DNA from: Rikenellaceae bacterium
GTDB lineage: Bacteria > Bacteroidota > Bacteroidia > Bacteroidales > Rikenellaceae
Assembly: GCA_015059845.1 (NCBI GenBank)
Contig: SUZR01000003.1
Location: 1-64,000, forward strand
Reading direction: 5' to 3'
Length of the DNA: 64,000 nt
The translations under genes and the position numbers were made by a program. Position 1 is the stretch's first letter; each line of letters starts with the position of its first letter. A model generated the notes under the pieces. That model had not been told where the DNA came from. It did no database searches and saw nothing but the letters and a program-made list of their open reading frames with translations. This document shows positions 14,265-27,808 of the stretch, in pieces.

Positions 14265-14378
14265 AGGCATACCCTGCGGCTTCCAGCCGCATATACAACT
14301 CCTACCCACCCCCTAAATCCCCCGCCTCAGGCAGGGGACTTTGGTCGCTACGCTCCAGAGGTTGCAGGACCAAAGGTT
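14265..14378 (-). repeat. Three-hairpin intergenic element, family 2, copy 1
   Basis: Reverse complement of region matches 26307-26418 and 27701-27808: CTTTGGTC…GACCAAAG, CCCCTGCC-TGA-GGCGGGG, GCGGCT-gga-AGCCGC, ending GGTATGCC. Confidence 0.85.
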
Positions 14379-26306: not shown

Positions 26307-26418
26307 CTTTGGTTCTCCGACAATGGAGTCGCTTGCGACGACCAAAGCCCCTGCCTGAGGCGGGGGTGCGTGGGTGGGTCAGATTTGTAAATGCGGCCAG
26401 CGGCCGCAAGGTATGCCT
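26307..26418 (+). repeat. Three-hairpin intergenic element, family 2, copy 2
   Basis: CTTTGGTT…CGACCAAAG, CCCCTGCCTGAGGCGGGGG, GCGGCCAGCGGCCGCAAGGTATGCC. Confidence 0.85.
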
Positions 26419-26453
26419 AATGTTGTGAGATTAGCAACTTATAACGATTGACT

Positions 26454-26909
26454 ATGCCAGATGTAACTATATACACCGACGGTGCTGCGCAGGGCAATCC
26501 CGGGCGTGGAGGCTATGGCGTTGTGCTTCTGTCGGGACCTCATCGCAAGGAGCTCTCGGCAGGCTATCGCCTGACGACAAACAACCGTATGGAGTTATTG
26601 GGTGTATGCGTAGCTCTTGAGGCGCTGAAGTTCGAGGGTACAAACGTCACGCTCTACTCCGACTCGAAGTATGTCGTCGATGCGGTGAATCAGCGCTGGG
26701 TGTTTGGCTGGGAGCGCAAAGGCTTTGCGGGGAAGAAAAATCCCGACCTATGGATGCGCTTTTTGCGTGTCTATCGCCGTCACCACGTTCGTTTCATCTG
26801 GGTCAAGGGGCACGCCTCAACGGCTGAGAACAATCGTTGTGACGAGTTAGCCGTGGCAGCTGCCAATAGTGGCGATTTAATGGAAGATACAGGATATAAT
26901 CCCGAATAG
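26454..26909 (+). CDS. rnhA: Ribonuclease HI
   Basis: IYTDGAAQGNPGRGGYGVVL, DSKYVVDAV, VKGHASTAENNRCDELA; ATG at 26454 (track start 26448 is TTG). Confidence 0.94.
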   Translation: MPDVTIYTDGAAQGNPGRGGYGVVLLSGPHRKELSAGYRLTTNNRMELLGVCVALEALKFEGTNVTLYSDSKYVVDAVNQRWVFGWERKGFAGKKNPDLWMRFLRVYRRHHVRFIWVKGHASTAENNRCDELAVAAANSGDLMEDTGYNPE

Positions 26910-26910
26910 T

Positions 26911-27687
26911 ATGAAACTCACCCTCTTAGGCACAGGAACATCACAGGGCGTACCCGTCATCGGATGCCGATGCGAGGTGTGTTGCTCGACGGATAGTCGT
27001 GACAACCGCCTGCGCACCTCGGCGATGATTGAGGTAGAAGGCAAATGTATTGTCATTGACGCGGGGCCCGATTTCCGACAGCAGATGTTACGTGCCGATG
27101 TGAGAAGATTGGATGCAATCCTCCTCACCCACGAGCATAAGGACCATACGGGCGGCTTGGATGATGTGCGGGCATTTAACTTTGTGGACTACCCCACGAT
27201 TCGTCCCGTTGACATCTACGCCACAGCACGCACGATGGCCTGCATACGCAAGGATTACGACTATGCCTTTGCGACAAACAAATATCGTGGTGTGCCCGAG
27301 ATACGTCTGCACGAGATAGATGGTGTGACTCCATTTGATGTTAAGGGAGTGGAGATTATACCCATTGCGGGCAAGCACTCTGCGCGCTTCGAGGTTACGG
27401 GCTATCGCTGTGGTAAGCTGGCCTATATGACCGACTTCAAGACCTTGTGCGAGGGTGAGATTGAGAAGCTGCGCGGCGTGGAGGTGCTGGTGATAAATGC
27501 TCTGCGTTTCAAGCCGCACGACTCGCATTTCAGCGTAGATGAGGCTTGGAATATTATCCGAGAGGTGAAACCCCGCAAGGCGTACCTCACACACCTGTCG
27601 CACGAGATAGGCCTGCACGCCACATCTGCCGAGCGACTACCCGAGGGCGTGGAGTTGGCATACGATGGACTCACGATTGAGATATAA
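26911..27687 (+). CDS. MBL-fold metallo-hydrolase (PhnP-like)
   Basis: LLGTGTSQGVPVIGC, LTHEHKDHTGGLDD. Confidence 0.88.
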   Translation: MKLTLLGTGTSQGVPVIGCRCEVCCSTDSRDNRLRTSAMIEVEGKCIVIDAGPDFRQQMLRADVRRLDAILLTHEHKDHTGGLDDVRAFNFVDYPTIRPVDIYATARTMACIRKDYDYAFATNKYRGVPEIRLHEIDGVTPFDVKGVEIIPIAGKHSARFEVTGYRCGKLAYMTDFKTLCEGEIEKLRGVEVLVINALRFKPHDSHFSVDEAWNIIREVKPRKAYLTHLSHEIGLHATSAERLPEGVELAYDGLTIEI

Positions 27688-27700
27688 ATGGGATAATACA

Positions 27701-27808
27701 ACCTTTGGTTCTGCAACCTCGGAGCGTTAGCGACCAAAGTCCCCTCCGAGGAGGGGATTTAGGGGAGGGTCAGATTTGCAAATGCGGCCAGCGGCCGCAA
27801 GGTATGCG
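27701..27808 (+). repeat. Three-hairpin intergenic element, family 2, copy 3
   Basis: CTTTGGTT…CGACCAAAGTCCCCTCCGAGGAGGGGATTTAGGGGAGGGT…GCGGCCAGCGGCCGCAAGGTATGC. Confidence 0.88.

Follow-up and report, generated by a model that had tools for sequence, protein, structure and literature searches.

The stretch of Rikenellaceae DNA considered here (the window, 64,000 nucleotides of contig SUZR01000003.1) carries three copies of an intergenic repeat of about 110 bp, which raises the question of whether these are transcribed RNA structures acting on the genes beside them or non-autonomous mobile DNA. Copy 1 (14265..14378, minus strand) lies between the genes for ApbE and a Gfo/Idh/MocA protein, copy 2 (26307..26418, plus strand) between valS and the RNase H gene rnhA, and copy 3 (27701..27808, plus strand) between the genes for an MBL-fold protein (Lactamase_B_2) and an SDR; the positions, strands and neighbours are as given in the original prediction. 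The core pattern ACCAAAGYCCCY..GGGG matches the window at these three copies only, copy 1 being listed twice, with 0.00 matches expected by chance. It had been allowed that an existing Rfam family might already describe the element, yet in the window every family stays below its gathering score, the best sub-threshold match being PhotoRC-I (18.7 bits against 45).

Three copies proved to be far too low a count. A search of the home genome (2.09 Mb, 92.6% complete) with a single copy as query gave 39 matches at E<=1; tightening the threshold to E<=1e-3 leaves 36 and to E<=1e-4 leaves 34. Approximately 120 distinct copies were read across Alistipes, the sequence read in the other genomes consisting of stretches around element copies. 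When a 20-base degenerate core pattern was compared with 84,980 species genomes, 97 of the 100 matches listed were in Alistipes or other Rikenellaceae, and the window genus is therefore taken as Alistipes; the other three matches listed, in Micromonospora, Methylosinus and Spirochaetaceae, look like chance. Several of the home-genome copies stand in tandem, 130-200 bp apart. Examples in which the repeated unit, including flanking DNA, is of about that length are found on contigs C14 (103306/103478/103641), C1 (62968/63172) and C12 (64055/64226/64409) of that genome (G000).

To trace the history of the three sites, 15 sister genomes were searched with the window stretch and the junctions were read. 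All three sites lack the element in every comparable sister genome, with the genes conserved and the intergenic gaps short: the site of copy 1 is empty in G015, G014, G001 and G010, that of copy 2 in G001, G015, G024, G020, G019 and G007, and that of copy 3 in G015, G005, G003, G002 and G001. As these sites are empty in sister species, the three copies are insertions. Full-length copies in other Alistipes genomes are about 187-192 bp long, with terminal inverted repeats (TIRs) of the GATTATATAC type and 8-bp target duplications that are mostly exact. The recently spread copies of G014, mostly 186-187 bp, have the ends GGTGATTATATACCAAATTACAC...GTATGTAAGCACC and lie between direct repeats, among them CCTATTTT, TAAATAAT, TATTACAA, ATAAATAA and ATATAATG. 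Scoring of ten copies (those of G014, one from A. sp. SC0368 and one of the JAMPGH type) found an exact 8-bp duplication in 7/10 and agreement at 7/8 bases or better in 8/10, while none of the mismatched pairs of flanks was exact. In A. senegalensis JAMPGH, where the TIR is GACGATTATATACYTTGATGTACC / CCCGATTATATACTTTGATGTACC, duplications are exact in 5/11 distinct insertions and agree at 7/8 bases or better in 9/11; these 11 were counted from 20 rows, most of which gave the same insertions on both strands. The suggestion of a non-autonomous mobile repeat is thus supported by the empty sites, the TIRs, the 8-bp target duplications and the genome-wide copies.

Among the JAMPGH copies, four (L211, L220, L231 and L240) are longer versions of 260-266 bp, in which the third strand described below is separated from hairpin B by an extra insert of about 70 bp (GCGTTCCGCTTCTGCTGTGGCGGTTCGGCAATCC...). 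A pair of TIRs 780 bp apart in the same genome proved, from reading of the sequence, to be two copies of the element around an ordinary gene. Comparison of Rfam with the loci carrying TIR-bearing copies identified only a tRNA (RF00005, 53.5 bits, E 3e-9) at 553-636 of the JAMPGH locus L177; the copy at this locus starts at about base 757, and the tRNA is hence an upstream neighbour outside the element.

The copies of the window genome look old, with ends mostly eroded and cores still about 80-93% alike. Their TIRs are mostly unrecognisable, the left ends not being significant and the right ends marginal, although that of locus L026 is clear, and the target duplications of the window copies are unreadable. 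A candidate 14-bp duplication at copy 1 (AAATATTAkTATAA) is unsupported genome-wide (direct-repeat permutation p = 0.24), as is the presence of TIRs of the G014 type in all home-genome copies. Inverted complementarity is in weak excess when the two flanks of one and the same copy are compared (permutation p = 0.014). Some short inverted complementarity, specific to individual copies, can be seen in the flanks of loci L002-L026, for instance ATCTCACAA/TTGTGAGAT at copy 2.

What has been conserved within the element was addressed by aligning 60 non-identical copies from many Alistipes genomes. Three hairpins are evident, termed A (GG-A-GC(n)GC-GA-CC), B (C-rich/G-rich) and C, of which 96.4% of cells are paired and 13 pairs have changed on both sides. 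There are 91 cells in which both sides have changed, against 23.9 in shuffled alignments (0/500 reaching the observed value), and the signal collapses when the partners are slid relative to one another; by covariation, structure is supported in all three. The three-stem layout holds in so far as A, B and C covary, but the first stem had been taken as CTTTGGT/ACCAAAG, and covariation is absent from this outer stem. The two halves behave differently, the 3' one being invariant and the 5' one freely variable, and the observed pairing (64.8%) equals that of shuffled copies (64.4%). The first hairpin is instead the inner one, well formed in copy 2 (GGAGTCGC tt GCGACGACC, 26325..26343, plus strand) and minimal in copies 1 (GGAGC gta GCGACC, 14343..14356, minus strand) and 3 (GGAGC gtta GCGACC, 27721..27735, plus strand).

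Hairpin C is TGCGGCTGGAAGCCGCA in copy 1 (14275..14291, minus strand) and TGCGGCCAGCGGCCGCA in copies 2 (26392..26408) and 3 (27783..27799), both on the plus strand. The change from T-A to C-G reported within this stem is real, the pair being CG in 36, UA in 12 and UG in 5 of the 60 family members. In other species hairpin C is replaced by different sequences that still form a hairpin. Hairpin B lies at 14318..14338 in copy 1 (minus strand; TCCCCTGCC tga GGCGGGGGA, the Watson-Crick part of a putative triplex), at 26348..26366 in copy 2 (plus strand; CCCCTGCC tga GGCGGGGG) and at 27740..27757 in copy 3 (plus strand; TCCCCTCC ga GGAGGGGA). Covariation of hairpin arms alone could come from template-switch mutation at quasi-palindromes.

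The strongest further signal in the core is a G-rich tract directly after hairpin B, which is the mirror image of the 3' arm of that hairpin and covaries with it. Across 111 copies, the bases at arm position x and tract position y are C and T in 81, A and A in 26, A and T in 3, and C and C in 1; the G runs of arm and tract are of equal length in 106/111; and the closing T-A pair and a third A are both present in 55 and both absent in 55, with one exception. Taken together as a strict mirror rule, this describes 102/111 copies, against an average of 32.3 when tracts are shuffled among all copies and 68.3 ± 3.7 (maximum 82) when they are shuffled within genomes. In the window, the tract of copy 3 (AGGGGAGGGT, 27761..27770, plus strand) is a perfect mirror of the arm across TTT and fits the triplex motif at 8/8 positions; that of copy 1 (AGGGGGTGGGT, 14304..14314, minus strand) mirrors the arm with a T opposite a C-G pair, and its fit requires this T.C-G and a T.G pair; and that of copy 2 (GTGGGTGGGT, 26370..26379, plus strand), where the G run is broken by one T, has one interrupted position and is an exception to the rule. 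A mirror, as opposed to a direct or inverted repeat, is needed for an antiparallel purine-motif third strand, whereas alternative Watson-Crick pairing or template switching would not produce one.

As the copies are of common ancestry, these covariation counts are not independent events, and only the shuffling tests, including the one within genomes, and the diversity of arm types bear on this. It could be argued that the coupled changes reflect nothing beyond a few founder types that spread without structural selection, given that all copies are related and that two main subtypes, CCTCC and CCTGCC, dominate. This appears unlikely: position x/y, G-run length and the closing A vary separately, yet the mirror is kept in six fully concordant combinations of the three, the within-genome shuffles fall far short of the observed fit, and many different arms in other genera follow the same code.

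These other genera were found with the pattern GTCCCCN{4,16}GGGGATTTAGGGG, which is present in 38/396 Bacteroidota genomes (21/172 genera), the home genome included, while a backward control gave 0. For 47 distinct variants from outside Alistipes, the bases after the fixed pattern were scored by a triplex code of G over G and A or T over A, and obey the mirror at 92.8% of positions, compared with 62.2 ± 3.4% (maximum 73.6%) when the tails are shuffled among hairpins. Related hairpins elsewhere in the phylum thus obey the same triplex rule that describes the covariation of hairpin B and its third strand in Alistipes. Two such hairpins were also seen in inverted orientation about 20 bp apart at one locus (L285; G415 C12:673993/674036), a REPIN-like doublet.

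The same variants bear on whether the G-rich tracts are kept for some other fold, either a G-quadruplex, for which the Alistipes tracts GGxGGGG..GGGGyGGG could give four G runs, or a switch in which the tract is an alternative Watson-Crick partner of the C-rich arm, CCCTCC also being able to pair with the downstream GGAGGG. Both are unlikely. Relatives in the phylum, CCCCTCTCGAGAGGGGATTTAGGGGTGTGT among them, obey the rule with two G runs only, which excludes a G-quadruplex as a general explanation, and a switch needs a direct rather than a mirror repeat and leaves the equal run lengths and the third A unexplained.

A transcribed cis-regulatory or RNA-processing element, such as a leader or intercistronic RNA whose plus-strand structure acts on the neighbouring genes, is close to the other reading that the original prediction offered. 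It has in its favour the strong covariation of the hairpins, the conservation of unpaired linkers and a T.G (U.G) pair in hairpin B, conserved in 51/60 copies, that would suit RNA better than DNA. Orientation was tallied, from a simple codon-usage gene caller, at 26 non-redundant home-genome loci: 14 copies run with the genes between co-directional neighbours, 6 run against them, 4 lie between divergent genes and 2 between convergent genes. The 14 loci leave a mild excess of copies that run with the genes, which speaks for the RNA reading, but orientation is not fixed, and a leader role argued from fixed orientation loses its basis; the mixed tally makes the three window copies a biased sample. 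Nor is position fixed, the next start codon being 37-180 bp away, mostly 37-97, at the 14 gene-direction loci. In addition, the downstream genes are unrelated, the sites are empty in sister species, the element has the ends of a mobile element in other species and the window contains no Rfam match above a gathering score. Finally, the mirror tract is of no help to RNA pairing, and purine-motif triplexes are stated not to form in RNA (PMC4666352). The structured core therefore stands, by covariation, but the mirror third strand suggests a DNA triplex and not an RNA leader, which we regard as improbable.

The element is in our judgement probably an Alistipes MITE, the core of which comprises hairpins A, B and C and a class II purine-motif intrastrand triplex third strand. 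On this account the repeat would be non-coding and would depend for its movement on a DDE transposase supplied in trans, one that recognises TIRs of the GATTATATAC type and makes 8-bp target duplications. The core would be a single-strand folding module made up of the three hairpins, with the G-rich tract after hairpin B folding back along the purine arm as a reverse-Hoogsteen, antiparallel third strand, according to a code of G over G-C, A (or T elsewhere in the phylum) over A-T, and T over C-G. The covariation suggests that a triplex is maintained, presumably at the level of DNA rather than RNA; it would form most likely in single-stranded DNA, during replication or transposition, and the structure itself is probably what selection keeps. 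As a first guess, the fold may cause replication pausing that favours transposition.

The identity of the transposase is suggested by two relics. In JAMPGH a TIR, CCCATCTATATACTTTGATGTACC, has exactly the sequence of the right end of the MITE from SC0368, and directly inside it begins a broken transposase gene that matches PF12762 (DDE_Tnp_IS1595) at 1.7e-11; a fragment of its relative is present in G019, about 430 bp away from a TIR-like end. An 8-bp target duplication also agrees with IS1595. The IS1595 family is nearly absent, most of the genus being without it, and no intact partner with the ends of the element was found in the genomes searched, only truncated relics; no TIR was found around an intact-looking IS1595 gene in G005, and a search of viral contigs gave no relative of the protein. 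As no intact partner was found, we infer from the two relics that an IS1595-type transposase was the driver and has now decayed in most of the genus, from which the intact element seems to have been lost. Decayed IS1595-type transposase genes adjoining ends that match those of the MITE lie at loci L270 (G041 C1 662000-665000) and L390 (G019 C5). ISL3, another candidate driver, was rejected, the family being nearly absent from the genus. Least probable by far is a repeat of the REP/REPIN type that owes its mobility to a RAYT (Y1_Tnp) transposase. This would match a palindromic, intergenic, many-copied and partly tandem repeat and the presence of RAYTs in 16/16 tested motif-bearing genomes of other families, but the REP-like label fails in this sense because Y1_Tnp is absent from the home genome and 24 other genomes of the genus (0/25), the motif lies within about 1.5 kb at 0/30 RAYT loci of motif-bearing relatives, and TIRs with 8-bp target duplications are not known as RAYT features.

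In comparison with known systems, the element has the properties of a MITE, being multicopy, short and non-coding, with TIRs, a target duplication of fixed length and presence or absence at orthologous sites. It resembles IS1595-family MITEs in its TIRs, 8-bp duplications, lack of coding sequence, length below 300 bp and an IS1595 relic inside the same end; it differs in that its core is a conserved fold, beyond leftover ends, and in that no intact partner IS was found. BOX, RUP, ERIC and Correia elements are structured bacterial MITEs of a similar kind, likewise short, mobile and intergenic, with RNA-like hairpins close to genes, but their sequences are unrelated to the Alistipes element, and we know of no third-strand mirror tract described for them. 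With REP/REPIN repeats it shares a palindromic, extragenic and multicopy character, but the 25 genomes of the genus searched lack RAYTs, and the element has TIRs and target duplications. It is therefore ordinary as a MITE and unusual in its triplex-type core with a covarying third strand.

The closest parallel to this core is with the class II purine-motif intrastrand triplex repeats of E. coli, known as BoxC, PIT or TM_ECO (Hoyne and Maher; Holder et al. 2015, PMC4666352). A single strand of TM_ECO folds as a triplex in vitro, whereas neither double-stranded DNA nor footprinting in vivo showed a stable triplex; the repeats are associated with genomic instability and have no known function (PMC4666352). 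TM_ECO is described from Proteobacteria, and neither Bacteroid* nor Alistipes appears as a word in the main text of that paper (PMC4666352). Both are multicopy intergenic repeats with a 5' C-rich arm, a loop, a G-rich arm, a short loop and a mirror G-rich third strand. By sequence the Alistipes core belongs to the class II intrastrand triplex motif (G.GC / A(T).AT), within which folding in vitro is known for TM_ECO only. It has another sequence and other arm lengths, such that the TM_ECO pattern CCCTCNCCCN3-6GGGNGAGGGN3GGGNGAGGG (PMC4666352) does not match the window copies, the arms of which are TCCCC(T)xCC. It is furthermore embedded in a MITE with TIRs and 8-bp target duplications, is flanked by two more covarying hairpins and has documented natural covariation of the third strand. 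No report on Alistipes MITEs or Bacteroidetes intrastrand triplexes was found in a limited collection of literature.

A broader reading would give the triplex an active role in mobility. Throughout Bacteroidota, selection would then keep intrastrand triplex hairpins as single-stranded DNA structures used by mobile repeats, for example to stall forks or to mark single-stranded target or donor DNA, and the widespread BoxC/PIT/TM repeats known from other phyla would be what is left of such elements. This is offered only tentatively, and we hold it to be doubtful. Intrastrand triplex repeats of the BoxC/PIT/TM type have been known for decades without a function, a route of spread or evidence that the register of the third strand is kept. 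What is new here is that the third strand covaries with the hairpin across many copies and genera, within a mobile element whose ends and target duplications can be read. Whether the triplex is real and selected is thereby opened to direct tests on natural variants, and the class is extended to Bacteroidota, including Alistipes, which is common in the gut.
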